Origin: Iamia majanohamensis
Lineage (GTDB): Bacteria > Actinomycetota > Acidimicrobiia > Acidimicrobiales > Iamiaceae
NCBI RefSeq assembly: GCF_028532485.1
Contig: NZ_CP116942.1
Coordinates: 4,278,001-4,342,000 of the forward strand
Reading direction: 5' to 3'
Length of the DNA: 64,000 nt
Both the position numbers and the translations under genes were made by a program. This document shows, one piece after another, positions 30,372 to 60,792 of this stretch (positions are counted from its first letter, which is position 1; every line of letters starts with the position of its first letter). Below the pieces are notes generated by a model. That model was not told the origin of the DNA. It made no database searches and saw only the letters and a list, made by a program, of their open reading frames with translations.

Positions 30372-30406
30372 GGTGATCAGGGTGTGCCCGGCACACCCTG
30401 ATCACC
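30372..30406. terminator. Perfect hairpin with 17-base arms
   Basis: GGTGATCAGGGTGTGCC, a single C, then its exact reverse complement. It lies between convergent genes (stops at 30335 and 30423) and shares the GTGTGCC-GGCACAC core with the hairpin at 21209. Probably a bidirectional terminator. Confidence 0.7.
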
Positions 30407-39490: not shown

Positions 39491-39505
39491 CGCGCCCGCC
39501 GCGCC

Positions 39506-39620
39506 CACGAACCAGACACCAGACGCGTCGTCCTGGCCACGCGTCTGGTCGCTGCTTCACCCCTCACCACGAACCAGAGACCAGACGCGTCGTCCTGGCC
39601 ACGCGTCTGGTCGCTGCTTC
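39506..39620. repeat. Tandem 53-bp hairpin repeat, two copies
   Basis: Copies at 39506-39558 and 39568-39620 differ at one base. Each contains ACCAGACGCGT, the loop CGTCCTGGCC and ACGCGTCTGGT. Flanks extend the stem imperfectly (GAACCAG/CTGCTTC). They lie between convergent genes. A related hairpin occurs at 60.7 kb. Confidence 0.8.
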
Positions 39621-39640
39621 GCCCGGAGCCGGGGTCGGCG

Positions 39641-40861
39641 TCAGGGGAGGGCGGCGCGGCGGGCGGCGAGGAAGCGGCGCTCGGCCGGGTTGGTGGCCAG
39701 GGCGAGGGCGGCGTCGTAGGCCGCGACGGCCTCCGCCGGGCGGTCGAGGCGCACCAGCAGGTCGGCCCGGGTGGCCGGCAGCAGGTGGTAGCGGTCGAGG
39801 CCGGCGAGGGCGTCGACCTCGGCCAGGGCGACGGCGGGCCCCTCGACCTCGGCCACCGCCACCGCCCGGTTGAGGGCCACCACCGGGGTGGGGTGGAGGG
39901 CCAGGAGCTGGTCGTAGATGCGCACGATCTGGGCCCAGTCGGTGGCCGCTGCGTCCGGGGCCTCGCTGTGCACGGCGGCGATGCAGGCCTGCAGCTGGTA
40001 CGGACCGGGCCGGCCCCGCCGCAGGCACGCAGCCACCTCGGCCCGCCCCTCGGCGGCCAGGTCGTGGTCCCACAGGGAGCGGTCCTGGTCGGCCAGCAGC
40101 ACCAGGTCGCCGGCCGCGTCGGTGCGGGCCGGGCGCCGGGCCTCGGTGAGCAGGAGCAGGCCGAGCAGGCCCCGGGCCTCGGGCTCGTCGGGCATGAGCT
40201 CGACGAGGGTGCGGGCCAGGCGGATGGCCTCGGCGCCCAGGTCCTCCCGGTCGAGGTCGTCGCCCGAGGTGGCGGTGTGGCCCTCGGTGGAGACGAGGTA
40301 GAGGACGGCCAGCACCGCGCCGAGGCGGTCCGGCAGCTCGGCATCGCCCGGGACCCGGTAGGGGATGTGCGCGTCGCGGATCTTGCGCTTGGCCCGCACC
40401 AGGCGCTGGGCCATGGTCGCCTCGGGGACCAGGAACGCCCGGGCGATGGCCTCGGTCTCCAGGCCGCCCAGCAGCTTGAGGGTGAGGGCCACCTGGGCGC
40501 TGGTCGCCAGGGCCGGGTGGCAGCAGGTGAAGATGAGCCGCAGGCGGTCGTCGGCCACCGGTCCCACCTCCTCGGGGGGATCGTCGTGGGTGTGCAGGCG
40601 GGTGGCGGCGACGTGGCGGTCGTGGCGCGTGGACTCCCGCCGCAGGCGGTCGATGGCCCGGTTGCGGGCCGTGGTGAGGATCCAGCCGCCGGGGTTCGGG
40701 GGCGTGCCCCGGGCCGGCCAGCGCTCGCTGGCCACCACGAAGGCCTCCTGGACCGCCTCCTCGGCGACGTCGATGTCGCCGAAGAGGCGGATCAGGGTGG
40801 CGACCACCCGCCCCCGCTCGTCGCGGTAGGTGCGGGCCAGGTCGGCGGCCGGGTCCGGCAC
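39641..40861 (-). CDS. ECF sigma factor with DUF6596/TPR-like extension (ECF42 type)
   Basis: A 406-residue protein. Sigma2 is at about 8-75 ([38 protein letters not shown]) and sigma4 at about 110-165 ([35 protein letters not shown]). A 220-residue C-terminal extension ([70 protein letters not shown]) is the hallmark of ECF42, where it is needed for activity in place of an anti-sigma factor. It lies seven bases after a DGPF/YCII gene, the known partner. Targets are commonly DGPF genes. Confidence 0.92.
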
Positions 40862-40868
40862 CGCGACG

Positions 40869-41234
40869 TCAGTCCTCGGGCTCGGACTGGAAGGGGCGGA
40901 CCTCGACGGCGCCGCGACAGGCGGCCGAGCCCTTCTTCGCCCACTCCAGGGCGGCGTCGAGGTCGGCGACGTCGATCACCCAGAAGCCGCCCAGGAACTC
41001 CTTGGTCTCGGCGAAGGGACCGTCGGTCAGCAGGACCTCTCCCTCGTGGGCCCGCACGGTCGTGGCCGTGTCGGGCATCTCCAGGCCGCCGGCGAACACC
41101 CAGGCCCCCTCGGCCTGCAGCTCGGTGTTGAAGGCGTCCACCGCGGCGAACGTGGCCTGCATGTCCTCGGGGGACATCTCGAAGGCGGCATCGTCGGTGC
41201 CGTCGTGGTGGACGGAGAGCATGTACTCGGCCAT
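40869..41234 (-). CDS. YCII-related DGPF-domain protein
   Basis: A 121-residue protein with [54 protein letters not shown] and VEVRPF: the complete YCII/DGPF family pattern. Its biochemical role is unknown; it is linked genetically to ECF42 sigma factors. First gene of a two-gene operon with the sigma factor. ATG at 41234 with AGGAGGAAG upstream. Confidence 0.92.
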
Positions 41235-41286
41235 CGGGGGCTTCCTCCTGTGTCGGGGACCGGCGCTCTGCCGGCCTCTGGGATGT

Positions 41287-41314
41287 CCACGAACGGGATC
41301 CCGCCGATTCGACA
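41287..41314 (-). promoter_or_regulatory. Candidate ECF42-dependent promoter of the DGPF-sigma operon
   Basis: On the minus strand TGTCGA (41314-41309) is followed after 17 bases by CGTGG (41291-41287). TGTCGA is the published -35 motif of ECF42 sigma factors. It lies about 55 bases upstream of the DGPF start, fitting autoregulation. The -10 match is weaker. Confidence 0.55.
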
Positions 41315-41380
41315 CCTCCGGCGAGATCTTTCCCGAAGATGTGTCGCAGGGCGACGGCGGTGGCCGAGGGGGCGCGGCGC

Positions 41381-41416
41381 GAAGTGTGATCACCGGGGCG
41401 GCCCGCACCTCTCACC
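41381..41416 (+). promoter_or_regulatory. Shared ECF-type promoter, copy 1 (own sigma gene)
   Basis: The element begins GAAGTGTGATCACC and ends ACCTCTCACC. TGTGATC (41385-41391) and CTCTCA (41409-41414) are 17 bases apart, typical of ECF -35/-10 spacing. The same 36 bases recur upstream of the sortase operon with 33 identities. The ECF gene starts at 41441, behind an AGGAGAGGG ribosome-binding site. Confidence 0.65.
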
Positions 41417-41440
41417 TCTGACCGACCAGAGGAGAGGGCC

Positions 41441-42037
41441 ATGCCCACCACGACCACCCCCCACCACCCGGCCCCCGACGGGCCCTCCGTCGGCGAGAGC
41501 ACCCTGCGGACCGTCGAGCGGCGCCTCGTCGCCCGGGCCGCCGAGGGCGACACCGAGGCCCTGGGCCGGCTGGTGGGCCTCCACCGGCGCCGCCTGGTCG
41601 CCGTGGCCCGCCGCACCACCCGCTGCCCGGCCGCGGCGGAGGACGCGGTGCAGGACGCCCTGGTGAAGATCTGGCGCCACGCCGCGCGCCTCGACCCGGA
41701 CCGCCCCTTCCTGGCCTGGGCCGCCACCGTCGTCCGGCGCACGGCCATCGACCACGTCCGGGCCGACGCCCGGGCCCGGGCGCTGGCCCGGCGGGCCGAC
41801 CGGCCCACGACCGAGGCCTGCCCCTTCGCGGCCGTCGACGACCGCCTCGACGCCGGGGTGCTGGCCGGGCGGCTCGGGGGCCACGCCGACGACCGGCGCC
41901 TGCTGTCGTGGATCCACGTCGACGGGGACAGCGTCGAGCACGTGGCCGACCGCCTCGGGGTCCCGGTGGGGACGGTGAAGTCCCGCAGCGCCCGGGCCCG
42001 CACCCGGCTGGCCGGCCACCTCGCCCCGGCGGCGTGA
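41441..42037 (+). CDS. ECF-family RNA polymerase sigma factor
   Basis: A 198-residue sigma factor. Sigma2 is at about 25-95 (LVARAAEGDTEALGRLVGLHRRRLVAVARR, AEDAVQDALVKIWRHAARLDPDRPFLAWAATVVRRTAIDHVR). Sigma4 is at about 140-190 (LGGHADDRRLLSWIHVDGDSVEHVADRLGVPVGTVKSRSARARTRL). No anti-sigma gene is adjacent in the usual form; the next gene encodes a second sigma factor fused to an anti-sigma-like segment. A promoter-like element upstream is repeated before the sortase operon, so this protein probably drives itself and that operon. Confidence 0.92.
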   Translation: MPTTTTPHHPAPDGPSVGESTLRTVERRLVARAAEGDTEALGRLVGLHRRRLVAVARRTTRCPAAAEDAVQDALVKIWRHAARLDPDRPFLAWAATVVRRTAIDHVRADARARALARRADRPTTEACPFAAVDDRLDAGVLAGRLGGHADDRRLLSWIHVDGDSVEHVADRLGVPVGTVKSRSARARTRLAGHLAPAA

Positions 42038-42170
42038 CCAGGGCGGGGAGGCGGTCGTGGACGGTGGCGGCACCGACCGCCGGGCACCCTCCCCCGGGGG
42101 GACCCCACCCGAGACACCGGTGGCGGCCGTCCGTACCCTCGACCGCGGAGGACGCCGAGGAGGTCTCCAC

Positions 42171-43823
42171 GTGCGAGCGGACGTCAGCACCGAGGCGAGC
42201 GACGCCGAGCTGGTGGCTGCGCTGCGCGCCGGCGACCCGGCGGCCCTGGCGACGATCTACGACCGCCACGCGGATGCCCTCTTCGCCTTCGCGGCGAGGA
42301 CGCTGCGCTCGCCCCACGACGCGGCCGACGCCTGCCAGGACGCCTTCGTCCTGGCCAGCCAGCGCATCGACCAGCTGCGGGACCCGTCCCGGCTGCGCCC
42401 CTGGCTCTACGCCATCGTCCGCAACGAGTGCACCCGCATCGGCCGGGCCCGGGCCCGCGTGGTGCCGGTGAGCCCCGAGGGCCACCACGACCGCGACGCC
42501 GGGCCCGGGGCGGACCTGGCCGCCGGGCGCACCGGCGACACCGCCGGGCCCGACCCGGTCGGCAGTGCGGCGGTGCGCACCGACGACGCCACCGTGGTGC
42601 GCGACGCGCTGGGCGGCCTCGACGAGCGGGACCGGGCCCTCTTCGCGCTCCAGGCCGGGGCGGGCCTGCAGGGCCGGGACCTGGCCGACGCCGCCGGCAT
42701 CCCGCCCCGCCAGCTGGGCCAGGCCACCGCCCGCCTGCGCGACCGCCTCGAGCGGTCGATCGTCTCGCTCCTCGTCTCCCGGCACGGCCGACGGGACTGC
42801 CCCGAGCTGGGGGCGATCCTGGCCACCTGGGACGGCCACCTCACCGTGCTGCTGCGCAAGCGGGTCTCCCGCCACATCGACGCGTGCGCCACCTGCTCCT
42901 CGCGCCGGGCCGCCCTGGTCCTCCCGGTCCGGTCGGCGCTGGCCGCACCGCTGCCGCTGCTCCTCGCCCCTGCGGACCTCCGTGGCCGGGTCCTCGACCG
43001 GGTCGCCGCGGCCCTCGACGGCGGGCCGGCCCCCGACCCCGGTGCAGCCGCGGACTGGCCCGGCGGCTTCCCGCCCGGCGCGCGCCGCCGGGGGCCCGTG
43101 CCGCCCCGCCGGGCCCTCGCCGCGGTGGCGGCGGTCGTGGCGATGGCGCTGGCCCTGGCCGTCCTGGTCGGGGCAGGCAGCGGGGGGGACGCGGTGGCCG
43201 GCGCCCCGGCGGCCCCCACCACGGCCGCCGTCCCGCCGCCGGACACCACCACCACGAACGTGCCCCCCACCCCCACGACGGGCGCCCCGGCGGCCCCCGA
43301 CGCCCCGCCGGCGGCCCCACCCGAGCCGGCCCCGGCGCCCCCGCCCGCGGCCCCGTCGCCGACCGAGCCGGCCCCTCCTCCCCCGCCGGCACCGACGGCG
43401 GACGCGCCCGGCGCGCCGACCCCCGAGGTGACGAGCGACCCGTCCCCGCCACCCCCACCGCCGCCGCCGCCCGAGCCGGAGAGGCCGGGGCGCGCCGACG
43501 ACCCGGTCGCCCCGGCGCCGGCGCCGGAGGTCGCGGTCGTCCGCGCCCCCACCTCGCTCGTGCGGACCGGCTGCCCCGGCCCCACCGAGGGCGTCGTGGC
43601 CGCCACCGCCTCCGGCGCCAGGCTGGTGGTGGAGCTCCTCACCGAGGGGATCGGCGGACCCCGGTCGACAGCGATGGCGGCGGCCGGCGGGGGCTGGACG
43701 GGGCCGGTCGGCCCCTTCGACGAGCCCGGGACGCTGACCGGCCGGGTCCGGGTGACCGACGAGGCGGGGCGCACCGCCACCAGCGCCCCGTCCACGGTGG
43801 TCGTCCAACCCTGCGCCGGCTGA
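42171..43823 (+). CDS. Membrane-tethered ECF sigma factor with zinc-finger, TM and extracellular domain
   Basis: A 550-residue fusion. Residues 10-90 form sigma2 (ELVAALRAGDPAALATIYDRHADALF, ADACQDAFVLASQRIDQLRDPSRLRPWLYAIVRNE). Residues 140-200 form sigma4 (LGGLDERDRALFALQAGAGLQGRDLADAAGI). His235-x3-Cys239-x2-Cys242 matches anti-sigma zinc fingers. A single helix at about 315-336 is followed by a Pro/Ala-rich stalk to about residue 475, then a folded domain ending VVQPCAG. The sigma domain would be held at the membrane until released, a one-component design known from ECF groups such as ECF52/53. The GTG at 42171 follows GAGGAGG by seven bases. Confidence 0.85.
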   Translation: MRADVSTEASDAELVAALRAGDPAALATIYDRHADALFAFAARTLRSPHDAADACQDAFVLASQRIDQLRDPSRLRPWLYAIVRNECTRIGRARARVVPVSPEGHHDRDAGPGADLAAGRTGDTAGPDPVGSAAVRTDDATVVRDALGGLDERDRALFALQAGAGLQGRDLADAAGIPPRQLGQATARLRDRLERSIVSLLVSRHGRRDCPELGAILATWDGHLTVLLRKRVSRHIDACATCSSRRAALVLPVRSALAAPLPLLLAPADLRGRVLDRVAAALDGGPAPDPGAAADWPGGFPPGARRRGPVPPRRALAAVAAVVAMALALAVLVGAGSGGDAVAGAPAAPTTAAVPPPDTTTTNVPPTPTTGAPAAPDAPPAAPPEPAPAPPPAAPSPTEPAPPPPPAPTADAPGAPTPEVTSDPSPPPPPPPPPEPERPGRADDPVAPAPAPEVAVVRAPTSLVRTGCPGPTEGVVAATASGARLVVELLTEGIGGPRSTAMAAAGGGWTGPVGPFDEPGTLTGRVRVTDEAGRTATSAPSTVVVQPCAG

Positions 43824-44140
43824 GGCCGGCGCTCCGGTGCAGGGCGGTCGACGACCGCGAGGGGGCTCCTGCGTCCGCAGGCCTCGGAGGTCCACCGGCC
43901 CCGGCGGCTCGCAGGGCCGAGCCGGGCCGAGGGAGGCCGACGCTCGCCGTGTGCCGTCACGGTCGCGAGCCCGAGGTGCAGACCGGTGGTGGGCGGCGGT
44001 GCGGGCGCGGTCGTCGGGGCCCCCGAGCGGGCCCCACCCCAGAGGCCGGGGTGGGGTGCCCGGCCCCGGCCGGCACGGGAACCGGGGTCCACCGCCAGCC
44101 GTACCCGGGGTGACACCCACACCGCCCCAGGAGGCACCCC
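43824..44140. other. 317-base gene-free gap with hairpin and promoter-like element
   Basis: No coding frame is supported. CCCCACCCC (44032-44040) pairs with GGGGTGGGG (44048-44056) around a 7-base loop, a probable terminator for the sigma fusion gene. Downstream, GGGAACC (44077-44083), 17 bases, then GTACCC (44101-44106) resembles the GGAAC-N16/17-GTT class of ECF promoters and precedes the acidic wall-protein gene by 34 bases. Both are by-eye calls. Confidence 0.45.
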
Positions 44141-44848
44141 ATGTCGAAGACCCTGCACCTGCTCAGCGCGACGGCCGTGGCCGCCGCCCTCACCCTGATC
44201 CCGGCCGTGGCCGGGGCCACCGACACGCCGACCCACGACTGCCGGCCGAGCGCCGACGGCGTGGTGGCCGACGGCCCGGCGCCCGACGACAGCGTCACCC
44301 CCGACGACGGCGCTGCGCCCGACGACGACGGCGTCACCCCCGACGACGGGGCCGTGCCCGACGACGACGGCGTCGACCCGGACGACGGGTCCCCCGACGG
44401 CGACGGCCTCGACGGCGACGACCTGGTCCCCGAGGACCTGGGCGACATCACGGCCCCTGACGACGGCGACACGCCCGACGGCGTCGACCTCGTCCCCGAG
44501 GACCTCGGCGACATCACGGCCCCCGACGACGCCGGGGACGACCTGCCCCCGCCCGACGACCTGGGCGACATCGTGCTCCCCGACGGCCAGCCCGACGACG
44601 GGGCCGACGACGCCACGCCCACCGACCTGGGCGCCGGCGACGGCGACCTGGCCGTCCCGACCTCCTTCCGGGGCGACGTCGGCTCCCAGGGCGAGCCCTG
44701 CCCCGTCCCCCAGGACGGGATCCAGACCGGGGCCGGCGGCACCGCCGGGACCGGCGACCCGACCGGCGCCCTGCTCGCCGCCGGCGTGGGCGGCCTGGCC
44801 CTCGCCGCCGGGGTGAGCGCGGCCCGGGCCCGGCGGCGCACCGCCTGA
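44141..44848 (+). CDS. Secreted Asp-rich repeat protein with C-terminal sorting-like tail
   Basis: A 235-residue protein. The signal peptide is TLHLLSATAVAAALTLIPAVAGA, cleaved near residue 26. Residues 35-165 are very acidic, with PDD/PDDDG/TPDDGA repeats and two copies of DLVPEDLGDITAPDD. The C-terminus has TAGTGD (201-206), a hydrophobic stretch GALLAAGVGGLALAAGVSA and a basic end ARARRRTA. That is the architecture of a sortase substrate, but TAGTG replaces LPxTG. A sortase gene lies 190 bases downstream. Asp-rich repeats could bind Ca2+ or form an acidic surface layer. RBS AGGAGG. Confidence 0.7.
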   Translation: MSKTLHLLSATAVAAALTLIPAVAGATDTPTHDCRPSADGVVADGPAPDDSVTPDDGAAPDDDGVTPDDGAVPDDDGVDPDDGSPDGDGLDGDDLVPEDLGDITAPDDGDTPDGVDLVPEDLGDITAPDDAGDDLPPPDDLGDIVLPDGQPDDGADDATPTDLGAGDGDLAVPTSFRGDVGSQGEPCPVPQDGIQTGAGGTAGTGDPTGALLAAGVGGLALAAGVSAARARRRTA

Positions 44849-44869
44849 CCCGCACCACCCCCGGCCGAC

Positions 44870-44900
44870 GGCCCGGGTCCCTCCTCGAGGGGCCCGGGCC
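44870..44900 (+). terminator. Strong terminator hairpin after acidic protein gene
   Basis: GGCCCGGGTCCCTC pairs with GAGGGGCCCGGGCC (14 bp including one T.G) around CTC. It begins 22 bases after the stop and separates this gene from the sortase promoter. Confidence 0.7.
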
Positions 44901-44997
44901 CCGTCGCGCCCGGGCCCGCAGGCGCGCCCGTCCCGGCCGCCCCCAGCCGCTCCGGCCCCGACGGCGTCCGGAACCAGGTCCTCGCGAGGTGGCGACA

Positions 44998-45033
44998 GAA
45001 GTGTGATCACCCGGGCGGCCGGGACCTCTCACC
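44998..45033 (+). promoter_or_regulatory. Shared ECF-type promoter, copy 2 (sortase operon)
   Basis: Aligned to 41381-41416 without gaps, 33 of 36 bases match: the 14-base start, an inner GGGCGGCC and the last 10 bases are identical. TGTGATC is at 45002-45008 and CTCTCA at 45026-45031. The sortase ATG is at 45037, so transcription would start at or next to the start codon. No ribosome-binding site is visible, suggesting a leaderless mRNA. Confidence 0.65.
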
Positions 45034-45036
45034 CCC

Positions 45037-45738
45037 ATGGACACCCACACCGACCCCACCCCGACCACCTCATCCCCACCCCCGCACCGGGGCCGAGGAC
45101 CCGACCGTCGGGCCCGGAGCTGGACGGTGCTCACCGCCGTCGTGGTCCTGGCCGCCCTCGCCTCCGCCGCCATCGTGCTCCTGGGCACCGAGCCACCCCC
45201 CGACGTCGTCGCCGAGGAGGTGGTCGTCCCCCGCTCCGGGAGCTCCACCACCGCGGCTCCCACCACCACCGAGGCCGCACCCCGGGCAGGGGAGCCGGGA
45301 CGGGTGGTGATCGACCGCATCGGCGTCGACGCCGAGGTCATCGACCTGGGCCTCGACGACGAGGGCGCCCTCGAGGTCCCCACCGACTTCAGCCAGACGG
45401 GCTGGTGGACCGGCGGGGCCCGCCCCGGCGAGGACGGCCCGGCGGTCATCGTCGGCCACGTCGACTCGGTCGACGGGCCCGCCGTGTTCTTCCGGCTCGA
45501 GGAGCTGGAGCCCGGCGACGAGGTCACCGTCGTGGCCGACGACGGCACCCCGACCACCTTCGTGGTCGAGCGGTCCCGCCAGGTCGCCAAGGACGAGTTC
45601 CCCACCGAGGAGGTCTACGGCGCCACCGACGACGCCGAGCTCCGCCTGGTCACCTGCGACGGCGACTTCGACCGCAGCACGGGCCACTACGACGACAACC
45701 TCATCGTCTTCCTGCGGGAGGTGGGCCCCGATGCCTGA
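45037..45738 (+). CDS. Class F sortase
   Basis: A 233-residue membrane-anchored transpeptidase. A signal-anchor helix spans about 29-50 (WTVLTAVVVLAALASAAIVLL), followed by a Ser/Thr linker and the beta-barrel sortase domain from residue 88. Catalytic candidates are His141 (VIVGHVDS), Cys207 (LRLVTCDG) and Arg213 (FDRSTGHY). GHVDS and VTC match class F of actinobacteria. It would attach secreted proteins to the wall or to another acceptor. It starts an operon with DUF5819 and HTTM genes and overlaps the next gene by eight bases. Confidence 0.88.
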   Translation: MDTHTDPTPTTSSPPPHRGRGPDRRARSWTVLTAVVVLAALASAAIVLLGTEPPPDVVAEEVVVPRSGSSTTAAPTTTEAAPRAGEPGRVVIDRIGVDAEVIDLGLDDEGALEVPTDFSQTGWWTGGARPGEDGPAVIVGHVDSVDGPAVFFRLEELEPGDEVTVVADDGTPTTFVVERSRQVAKDEFPTEEVYGATDDAELRLVTCDGDFDRSTGHYDDNLIVFLREVGPDA

Positions 45739-46318
45739 GCCCACCACCCCACCCACTGCCGAGGCGACCGCCCTCCGCCCCGGCCTCCAGGAGCGGGTCG
45801 AGGCCCACCCCGTGGGTCGGGCGCTGGTGGCCGCGGCCATCGCCCTGGTGCTCGCCACCCTGGTGGCCCACAACCTGCCCGACTCGGCGCTGCGGGAGCG
45901 CCTGGCCGACGCCGTCGCCCCCGTCGACCGCCACTCCGGGCTGGCCCAGGACTGGAAGCTCTTCGCCCCCGACCCCAGCGCCGTCGGCGTCGAGCTCGTC
46001 GCCGTGGTGCGCCGGGCCGACGGGACGACCGGCACCTGGCGGCCGCCGGTGGGCGGCGACACCCCGCTCAGCGCCTACCGGGGCTTCCGGTGGCGGAAGT
46101 GGGCCAGCGCCCTGGCCCGCAGCGAGAGCCCGGTGGCCCTGGCCGGTGCGGCCCGCCTCGTGGCCGCGGCCGACGACGGCGCGCCGGCGGTGGAGGTGGC
46201 CTTCTACCGGGTGGGCCTGGGGGAGCACGCCTCCCTCGAGCCCCGGTCCCTCGGGCGGGTCGCGGTGCGCGAGGGCGCCTCCCCGGGCGCCGAGCAGCAG
46301 GCCGGAGGTGGGTCGTGA
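45731..46318 (+). CDS. DUF5819 family protein
   Basis: A 195-residue protein with one N-terminal membrane helix (GRALVAAAIALVLATLVAHNL). It then has GLAQDWKLFAPDPSAVGVELVAVVRRADG, the WxLFAPDP motif of DUF5819, and an outside domain. The family commonly sits next to HTTM proteins, as here. Function unknown. It overlaps both the sortase gene and the HTTM gene, so expression is coupled. Confidence 0.8.
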   Translation: MPEPTTPPTAEATALRPGLQERVEAHPVGRALVAAAIALVLATLVAHNLPDSALRERLADAVAPVDRHSGLAQDWKLFAPDPSAVGVELVAVVRRADGTTGTWRPPVGGDTPLSAYRGFRWRKWASALARSESPVALAGAARLVAAADDGAPAVEVAFYRVGLGEHASLEPRSLGRVAVREGASPGAEQQAGGGS

Positions 46319-47264
46319 CCGCCGCCCGACGCGCCACCGACTGGTTCCTCGTCCCCCAGCGGGCCGAGCCCCTCGCCCTCCTGCGCATCGGGTTCGGGCT
46401 CCTGGTCCTCGTCTGGTGCCTGGCGGTCGCCGGCGACGCCACCACCTTCTTCGGCCCCGAGGGCCTGCTCCCCGGGTACGCGGGCACGGCCTCGCCTCTC
46501 GCCGTGCTGTCGTGGTGGACCGGCCCCGCCGCCGCCCCCGTCGTGCTGGCGGTGCTCGCCCTGGCGGGCGCCGCCCTGGTGGTCGGCTGGCACACCCGGC
46601 TGGCCGCCCTCCTCGTCTTCGTGGGCGTGCTGTCGCTGCAGCGGCGCGACCCCTTCGTGCTCAACGGCGGCGACCTGCTGCTGCGGATCATGGCCCTGGC
46701 CGTGGTGGCCATGCCGACGGGCCGGGTGGCCTCGCTCGACGCCCGGCGGGCCGCCCGCCGCGGACGCCCGCTGTCGCCGGTGGCCTCGGTGTGGGCCCTG
46801 CGCCTGCTCCAGGTCCAGGTGGCCGTGCTCTACGCCGACTCCGTGTGGGAGAAGCTGGCCGGGGAGACCTGGCGCGACGGCACGGCGGTCGGACGGGCGG
46901 TCTCGGCCGAGCACCTCCAGCGGCTCGTCGTGCCGGAGTGGTTCCTGTCCAACACGTTCCTCGTGGCCCTGGCCACCTGGGGCGCCCTCGCCGTCGAGGC
47001 CGCCATCCCCGCCCTGGTGTGGAACCGGCGGTGGCGGCCCTGGGTGCTGGGAGCGGGCGTCGCCCTCCACCTCGGCATCGAGGTGACCCTCGACCTCGGG
47101 TTCTTCCCGGCCACGATCCTGGTCTCCTACCTGGCCTTCGTGCCCCCGGAGACGGCGCGCCACGTGCTGGCCCGGATCGGCCTGCTCGACGACGACCGCC
47201 CCGCTCCCGTCGAGGTGGCCCGACCGACCGAGGCGCTGTCGCAGGGGGGTGGGAGGATGGCCGG

Positions 47265-47268
<4 letters not shown>
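46315..47268 (+). CDS. HTTM domain membrane protein (vitamin K-dependent carboxylase-like)
   Basis: A 317-residue membrane protein with several helices (LALLRIGFGLLVLVWCLAVAGD at the start; VVLAVLALAGAALVVGWHTRLAALLVF; YADSVWEKLAGETWRDGTAVG in a loop; GALAVEAAIPALVWNRRWRPWVLGAGVALHLGIEVTL). LLRIGFG and the tandem helix pattern fit HTTM, the horizontally transferred membrane domain related to vitamin K gamma-carboxylase. Catalytic activity is not established in bacteria. The GTG start overlaps the DUF5819 stop. Confidence 0.85.
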
Positions 47269-49370
<2,102 letters not shown>

Positions 49371-53441: not shown

Positions 53442-55079
53442 TCAGGCCACGTCGCGGCGGACGAAGCCGGCGACGCCCGCGGTGAGCAGGAGGGCGGCCA
53501 CGCCCGTCAGCGCCGCCAGCGGGACGACGTCCACGTCGACGGCGGGCACGCCGGGCACGTGGGTGAACGGCGAGAGGTCGCGGACCCACTGGGGCAGGTC
53601 GAGCCCCTCGCCCAGCACCCCGACGACGACGGCGAGCGCGAGCACCGCCCACACCGCCGCGGTGGCCCGGGGCACCAGCCCGTAGAGGGCGACGCCCACC
53701 CCGACCACGAGCGCGACGGCGGGGGCGAAGGCCAGGCTGGCCAGGCCGATGCGGGTGACCTGGCCGGCATCGCCGACCGAGGCCCCGTAGGACGCCCCGG
53801 TGCCGAGCCCGCCGGCCCCGAGCACGACCGCGCTGCCGGCCAGGGCGACCGCCAGGTGGCTGCCGAGCCAGCGGGGCCGCGACGCGCCGCCGGCCAGCAC
53901 CCACTCGGCCCGGTGGGCCGCCTCCTCGGACCGCGGTCGCAGGGCGGCCTGGAGGGCGAAGCCGGTGGCCACCAGGGCGACGTAGAGGAGCACGGTGGCG
54001 AGGAAGACCTCGGCCAGCGACGCCCCACCCAGCTGGGCCGGGTAGGCCCGGATCTGCTCGTTGTCGCCGACCAGGTCGTCGGCGCTGGCGGCGACCGAGC
54101 CGAAGGCCAGCCCACCCGCCCCCACGCCGACGGCCCAGGCCAGCAGGCCGGCCCGCTGCAGCCGCCAGGCCAGGCCCAGCGGGCGCCCCAGCCCGGGCGC
54201 GCCCCGCGGGGGCCCGGGCCGGGGCCGGACCAGGCCCGCGCCCACGTCGCGCCGGGCCTCGAGGGCGAGGGCCACCGCCACCAGGGCCGCCGCCGCCACG
54301 AGGCAGAGGGCGAGGGGCCACCAGCGATCACCCGCGTAGGGGCGAGTGGCCTGGACCCAGCCGAAGGGCGACGCCCACGACAGGGCCCCGCTGCCCACGT
54401 CGCCGAGGGCGCGCAGCACGAAGGACAGGGCGACGACCGCCGAGGCCATGCCGGTGGCGGCGCGGCCGTGCTCGGTGACCTGGGCCGTCACCAGGGCGAC
54501 GGCGCCGAACACGATGCCGAGGGCGGCGAAGCCGGCGGCCAGCAGCAGCGAGCCGACCACGGGCAGGCCGAGGGCGAGCAGGGCGAGGGCGAAGCCGACC
54601 CCGACCAGCAGGCTGGCGCCTGCGCTGACGGCGAGGGCCGAGGCGCTGTGGGCGTGGCGGCCCACCACCGTGGCCCGCACCAGCTCGGTGCGTCCGGCCT
54701 CCTCCTCGCTCCGGGTGTGGCGGCCCACGGCGAAGGCGGCCATGAGCGCCACCGCCACGCCGAAGGGCCAGATCTCCCACGCGATGCGCCCGCCGTAGGT
54801 GTCGAGGCCCACCGCCGGCCCGCTCAGGGCGATCAGCGACGAGCTGCCCTCGACGGTCGCCGCGTACTGGGCCAGGGCGGCCTCGTCGGCGTAGGCCCCG
54901 AAGATGCTGGCCCCGCTGAAGCCGACCAGGGCGGTGAGCGACAGGACCCAGACGGCCACCCGCACGCGGTCGAGGCGCAGGACCAGGCGGGTGAGGGCTG
55001 CGGCGCCGGCGACGGGCGCCCGCCCGGGCCGACGGCGCTCGGGCGCCACGCTCCCGGCGGCAGCGGTGGGTGCGGTCAC
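53442..55079 (-). CDS. ABC exporter permease (ABC-2-like, Rv1217c type)
   Basis: A 545-residue membrane protein with about 12 helices in two halves of six, starting [33 protein letters not shown]. It contains [47 protein letters not shown], the repeated EEE-A-GR-E loop typical of the tetronasin/polyketide-antibiotic exporter permeases (compare [15 protein letters not shown] in the second half). It pairs with the upstream ATPase through a GTGA overlap. Substrates are probably hydrophobic drugs or lipids. Confidence 0.85.
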
Positions 55080-60674: not shown

Positions 60675-60705
60675 CCTCCCGCCGGCCTTCCGACCCGCCT
60701 CCACC

Positions 60706-60757
60706 CGAACCAGAGACCAAACGCGCTGCGGGGGCGACGCGTCTGGTCGCCGGTTCG
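60706..60757. repeat. Hairpin related to the 39.5-kb repeats
   Basis: CGAACCAGAGACCAAACGCG (60706-60725) pairs with CGCGTCTGGTCGCCGGTTCG (60738-60757) at 17 of 20 positions. Left arm shares GAACCAGAGACCA with the second copy at 39.5 kb. Between convergent genes. Confidence 0.65.
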
Positions 60758-60792
60758 CAGCGAGGCGTCGGCGCCGGCCCTGCGCGCCCGGG

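Follow-up and report, generated by a model that had tools for sequence, protein, structure and literature searches.

A repeated promoter-like element ahead of an ECF sigma factor gene and a class F sortase operon in Iamia majanohamensis

Self-regulation is general among extracytoplasmic function (ECF) sigma factors, and PMC3426412 gives their typical promoter signature as AAC in the -35 block and CGT in the -10 block. The ECF41 promoters described there read TGTCACA-n16-CGTC, with a spacer of 16 ± 1 and a 22/23-base leader; their -35 also lacks AAC, and CCTC serves as the -10 in one putative ECF41 target. For the ECF52 (SCO4117) family, PMC5826349 lists an ECF domain, a zinc finger, a transmembrane region, a proline-rich extension and a carbohydrate-binding domain, and the motif CSGYN-17bps-SRHA is proposed for an ECF52 factor. 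PMC13251363 describes what class F sortases do physiologically as unknown, and reports no phenotypic change in a strain lacking four of them. Here we describe a 36-base element that occurs twice in a 64,000-nucleotide stretch of Iamia majanohamensis DNA (contig NZ_CP116942.1, positions 4,278,001 to 4,342,000; hereafter the window), once ahead of an ECF sigma factor gene starting at 41441 and once ahead of a class F sortase operon starting at 45037. Feature coordinates are collected in Table 1.

The repeated element and its promoter-like layout

The two copies lie on the same strand and are identical at 33 of 36 positions without gaps, as a previous sequence-only reading of this DNA had claimed. 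The repeat is real and far beyond shuffle level: the best 36-base pair matched at 28–29 positions in 12 dinucleotide-preserving shuffles of the 64 kb window, and no pair exceeded 30 when the local 4.6 kb was shuffled 300 times. The window has four further pairs with at least 33/36 identities, all of them near-tandem, with copies 39–66 bases apart. Likeness ends at the edges of the element, with 4, 4, 2 and 4 of 10 bases identical in four 10-base blocks leftward and 2/10 in each of the first two blocks wholly to its right; the next two blocks, within the genes, share 7/10 and 6/10. In the 4.58 Mb single-contig genome, the pattern proposed in the sequence-only reading, TGTGATC-N17-CTCTCA, occurs exactly at these two places only, with six more at two mismatches and two for a reversed-pattern control. 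The left 14 bases of the element, GAAGTGTGATCACC, gave two exact matches and one with two mismatches (control, 3).

Both copies show the layout expected of an ECF-type promoter, with blocks separated by 16 ± 1 bp and suitably placed before a start codon; TGTGATC would be the -35 and CCTC the -10. At copy 2 just 8 bases separate CCTC from the sortase ATG at 45037 and a ribosome site is absent ahead of that ATG, so the sortase message is predicted to be leaderless; copy 2 would then drive a sortase-DUF5819-HTTM-RecQ message from about 45037. At copy 1 the corresponding distance to the ECF ATG is 29 bases, with AGGAGAGG ahead of the ATG. Applying the offset that we infer for copy 2 would place the start of the ECF message near 41420 and leave about 21 bases of leader ahead of its ATG. 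A sigma-70 promoter scan of 41200–45400 gave no match, with none expected in shuffles either. Spacing, position, start geometry at both genes and uniqueness in the genome thus support an ECF-type promoter pair, which we consider the likely identity of the two copies. Neither the AAC nor the CGT typical of ECF promoters is present, so the prior description of the promoter as non-standard is justified, and the placement of the copies ahead of the ECF gene and the sortase operon was borne out, each gene being on the strand of its copy.

That the ECF factor of 41441 reads both copies is a narrower call, which we put slightly above an even chance. As had been proposed, activation by this factor of itself and of the sortase operon is plausible; it would most likely boost its own gene and raise the sortase apart from the gene of the sortase's putative substrate, which lies just upstream of copy 2. 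A self-switching ECF factor with a local target is ordinary for this class of regulators; the promoter letters are unusual. The near identity of the two spacers (14 of 17 positions) suggests that one copy is a duplicate of the other; such likeness goes beyond what a promoter needs, and points to either a recent duplication or a spacer with a function.

Evidence against, and competing explanations

Several observations weigh against a promoter pair read by the 41441 factor. The typical ECF letters are absent from both copies and the spacer likeness exceeds what a promoter requires. The codon-usage model favours GTG 45127 as the sortase start, which would give a leader of about 90 bases; we kept 45037 because the later start loses the basic residues before the membrane stretch and because third positions are 83% G+C over the initial 30 codons counted from 45037. 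No anti-sigma gene of its own adjoins the ECF gene. No convincing third site emerged in the genome, which makes 'regulon', the word used in the sequence-only reading, a strong one for two units. With up to one mismatch, GTGTGATC-N15-17-CCTC matched 44 places, two of them exactly (reversed control, 14). A crude codon-usage gene finder, applied to 43 of them, placed two of the 41 inexact ones within 150 bases before a predicted same-strand start (L151 and L205) and one overlapping a start (L134), none of which shares the remainder of the element; the 44th, near window position 54306, lies inside a long reading frame. The six two-mismatch places of TGTGATC-N17-CTCTCA had no clear target gene.

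Nor did the relatives searched lend support, as neither a close relative of the ECF factor nor the element was found in them. Matches to the 41441 factor occurred in 59 of 61 genomes, at no more than 40% identity among the matches listed apart from itself, and a contig scan for its relatives returned 10 loci, all at ≤36% identity. The pattern GTGTGATC-N15-19-CTCTCA was present in one of the 61 genomes, the source genome itself. TGTGATC-N16-18-CTCTCA was found at 43 places in 41 of 397 genomes of the order, 40 besides the source genome (reversed control, 5), with two places each in the source genome and in G348, where they lie on different contigs. A longer element pattern with up to two mismatches matched in 164 of 395 genomes of the class; among the matches listed most had two mismatches and only the two window copies were exact. 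In relatives, the sequences ahead of 36 ECF-like genes (28 ECF and 8 ECF52-like loci, with L038 and L163 left out) scored at shuffle level for the motif, the best being 11/14 in two loci against shuffle maxima of 10–12. Taken as a whole, the sequence-only interpretation is partly supported.

The copies could be ECF-type promoters read by another sigma factor, with the 41441 ECF gene as a target and not the master, although we regard this as unlikely. A second sigma-like gene, ECF52-like and absent from the sequence-only reading, sits between the copies and has a TIGR02937 match of its own, and nine matches to the 41441 factor at E ≤0.001 in the genome provide other candidate readers. Relatives of the ECF52-like protein, among them those in G017 and G002 (43–44% identity over its length), argue against the neighbour: neither a 41441-type ECF nor a sortase lay alongside them in the nine loci examined, and eight loci showed no motif above shuffle level. 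The ECF52 motif given in PMC5826349 also differs from the element.

Another reading, which we consider improbable, makes the element an operator: a dimeric regulator bound there would control both genes, whose ordinary promoters would overlap the site. The conserved spacer would fit such a site, two of the three differences compensate each other in a small central dyad (G-C in one copy being C-G in the other), and the outer hexamers are near-complements. However, this symmetry is modest (6.6% and 1.8% of the 36-base stretches in the window are equally palindromic), the dyad argument was made after the fact, and a promoter, but not an operator, accounts for the hexamer-to-start geometry.

We give little credence to the view that the copies have no role themselves and are the scar of a duplication or recombination event. 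They are direct repeats bounding a 3.6 kb block that holds the ECF, ECF52-like and substrate genes, and the likeness runs through all 36 bases, spacer included; yet none of the genes between them was recognised as a recombinase or transposase, three mismatches suit a fresh target-site duplication poorly, and a same-strand start codon follows within 24 bases of the end of copy 1 and within 3 bases of that of copy 2. Very unlikely is an action in RNA, in which a leader structure hides or exposes the ribosome site: CCTCTCACCTCT of copy 1 can pair with AGAGGAGAGG, which contains that site, but neither element folds unusually well (z -0.07 and -1.13; -1.29 when the leader of copy 1 is included), no Rfam match reached gathering scores in the window, and copy 2 has no ribosome site to hide.

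The sortase, its putative substrate and neighbouring genes

Exactly four GVDTG tails score above the cut-off in the genome (one only with its neighbours in frame). Because each of the four genes adjoins one of four sortase genes at least 44% identical to the window sortase, the acidic protein encoded directly upstream of the gap with copy 2, whose GVDTG tail the sequence-only reading did not mention, is probably the substrate of the sortase at 45037–45738. The four tails and four sortases form dedicated one-to-one pairs, and a fifth, remote sortase match is also present; of the genome's sortases, the class F model was applied to that of the window.

We compared the arrangement of this pair with 33 other sortase loci, 19 of which have a sorting-tail gene directly upstream by a simple test; the 14 without one were uncounted. 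In all 19 judged pairs an in-frame sortase start overlaps the substrate gene or follows it by at most 66 bases (at L072 the choice is between overlapping starts and one at +94; L079 and L080 are alike and possibly not independent). In the window the first in-frame start comes 188 bases behind the substrate gene, and the gap holds a strong hairpin and then copy 2. This difference from the other pairs suggests that here the sortase was probably made a transcription unit of its own, with the substrate transcript probably terminating at its own hairpin. The whole gap folds with z -3.08, compared with 0.78 and 1.02 for two other gaps. A simple terminator scan did not detect the hairpin, and it expected no matches either.

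Table 1. Features of the locus, in window coordinates
Feature	Position	Strand	Basis or remarks
DUF6596-type sigma gene	39641-40861	-	domain search
YCII gene	40869-41234	-	ATG at 41234
TGTCGAA-N16-CGTG before YCII gene	41288-41314	-	0 mismatches, sole match; layout comparison
Element copy 1	41381-41416	+	ahead of ECF gene; -35 TGTGATC 41385-41391, 16 bp, -10 CCTC 41408-41411
ECF sigma factor, 198 amino acids	41441-42037	+	Sigma70_r2 70.5 bits (cut-off 24), Sigma70_r4_2 27.2 (25.7), TIGR02937 71.4 (42.9)
ECF52-like protein	42171-43823	+	sigma part, HxxxCxxC, hydrophobic stretch, proline-rich tail; TIGR02937 61.6 bits, Sigma70_r2 above cut-off
GGAAC-N17-CGTA, candidate ECF-like promoter of substrate gene	44078-44103	+	pattern scan, 4 matches in window; position only
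Secreted acidic protein with GVDTG sorting tail	44141-44848	+	NF058571 30.9 bits, cut-off 29
Strong hairpin after substrate gene	44867-44905	+	-36.8 kcal/mol, z -2.43; terminator-like, no T run
Element copy 2	44998-45033	+	ahead of sortase; -35 TGTGATC 45002-45008, 16 bp, -10 CCTC 45025-45028
Class F sortase	45037-45738	+	NF033748 182.8 bits, cut-off 166; no ribosome site before ATG
DUF5819-like protein, sub-threshold	45731-46318	+	PF19136 18.3 bits, cut-off 27.1
HTTM protein	46315-47268	+	PF05090 61.4 bits, cut-off 27.7
RecQ-family helicase	47265-49370	+	TIGR00614 234.3 bits, cut-off 219.8

Curated cut-offs are exceeded for four gene labels of the sequence-only reading (ECF sigma, class F sortase, HTTM and RecQ family), whereas DUF5819 stays sub-threshold. 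The 41441 factor comprises sigma regions 2 and 4 and little else; among the 25 NCBIfam matches listed for it, the superfamily model TIGR02937 alone exceeded its cut-off and no named subfamily did. In the ECF52-like protein, the HxxxCxxC, hydrophobic stretch and proline-rich tail were judged by eye from the translation, with the start taken from the codon-usage gene finder; zf-HC2 reached 11 bits, below its cut-off of 22.2, and there was no carbohydrate-binding match. The ends of the sortase, DUF5819-like, HTTM and RecQ genes overlap. The HTTM protein, which forms a pair with the DUF5819-like protein (45731–47268), also matches the SdpB family model below cut-off (44.2 bits versus 178.4); SdpA and SdpB of Bacillus are a comparable pair.

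The candidate promoter of the substrate gene lies 37 bases before its ATG and has more usual ECF-like letters. One may therefore picture two ECF-like sigma factors side by side as a split surface-display switch, in which one reads TGTGATC-CCTC for itself and the leaderless sortase while the hairpin-separated substrate gene answers to GGAAC-CGTA. We view this scheme as speculative and rather improbable; if true, surface anchoring would need both signals, unlike in the close substrate-sortase pairs of relatives.

Other repeats were noted in passing. Dispersed imperfect palindromes around GTGTGCC(T/A)GGCACAC (window 21210, 34509 and 30372–30406; genome positions near 270548 and 1796700) apparently constitute a repeat family of this genome. 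A 75–79-base repeat with a ACGCGTCGTCCTGGCCACGCGTCTGGTCGCTGCTTC core lies at window 39500–39640, where it is exact over 36 bases at 39523 and 39585, and a third copy is found at 60698–60776 (73%).

ECF-sortase links in relatives and comparison with known ECF systems

A tie between ECF factors and class F sortases recurs in relatives, with another ECF group and other letters: there a class F sortase and an RskA-linked ECF lie in one operon. The operon order at L194 3835–6620 (G002, same genus) and L074 4094–7166 (G028, another family of the order) is a DUF4397 protein with a sorting-like tail, a class F-like sortase, an ECF factor and an RskA-type anti-sigma factor. By eye, GTGCATCC-N17-CG(A/T)A precedes both operons. 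An ECF profile search of the 33 sortase loci, most of them with a 1.5 kb flank, found a same-strand ECF adjoining the sortase in these two alone. The RskA-linked ECF had matches at E ≤1e-20 in 105 of 248 genomes of the order, and none at that level in the source genome. Of 50 matches set apart at E <1e-33, 30 loci were viewed, several of which end at contig ends; a sortase lies directly upstream in three (L194, L074 and L222). GCATCC-N16-18-CG occurs within about 270 bases ahead of the ECF match in 13 of the 30, with 22 matches in the rest of the loci, which is about 10 times longer.

No ECF regulon of a class F sortase and no TGTGATC ECF promoter were recognised in the openly licensed literature searched, judged by titles and the beginnings of abstracts. 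The putative link of a sigma factor to a class F sortase here, and separately that of another ECF group in relatives, would offer a handle on these enzymes, since the signal would show when anchoring is needed, and the promoter pair, if it is one, would add an ECF promoter specificity that we did not find in the literature searched.

Like the window locus, the RskA-linked operons tie an ECF factor to a class F sortase and a sorted surface protein. They differ in the ECF group, in having the sortase inside the ECF operon and an anti-sigma gene of their own, and in their motif.

The -35 of both copies reads TGTGATC, and is neither the TGTCACA of ECF41 nor the TGTCGAA of ECF42; we take TGTCGAA...CGTC to be the ECF42 promoter letters. 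The ECF42-type site before the YCII gene shares the layout of the element and its 16 bp spacer, with other letters and another sigma gene, of DUF6596 type. With up to one mismatch allowed, chance alone would yield 1.50 matches, so only the position of this site speaks for it.

The neighbour between the copies resembles ECF52 (PMC5826349) in its sigma part, HxxxCxxC, hydrophobic stretch and proline-rich tail. It departs from ECF52 in its sub-threshold zinc finger and in lacking a carbohydrate-binding match, and the published motif is unlike the element. Closest to the element are the ECF41 promoters (PMC3426412), which share with it two blocks, a -35 beginning TGT, a 16 bp spacer, a short leader at the ECF-linked target and a target gene adjoining the ECF gene. 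The window differs from ECF41 in its TGTGATC/CCTC letters, in an ECF factor without the SnoaL-like extension, and in having a sortase as the putative target.

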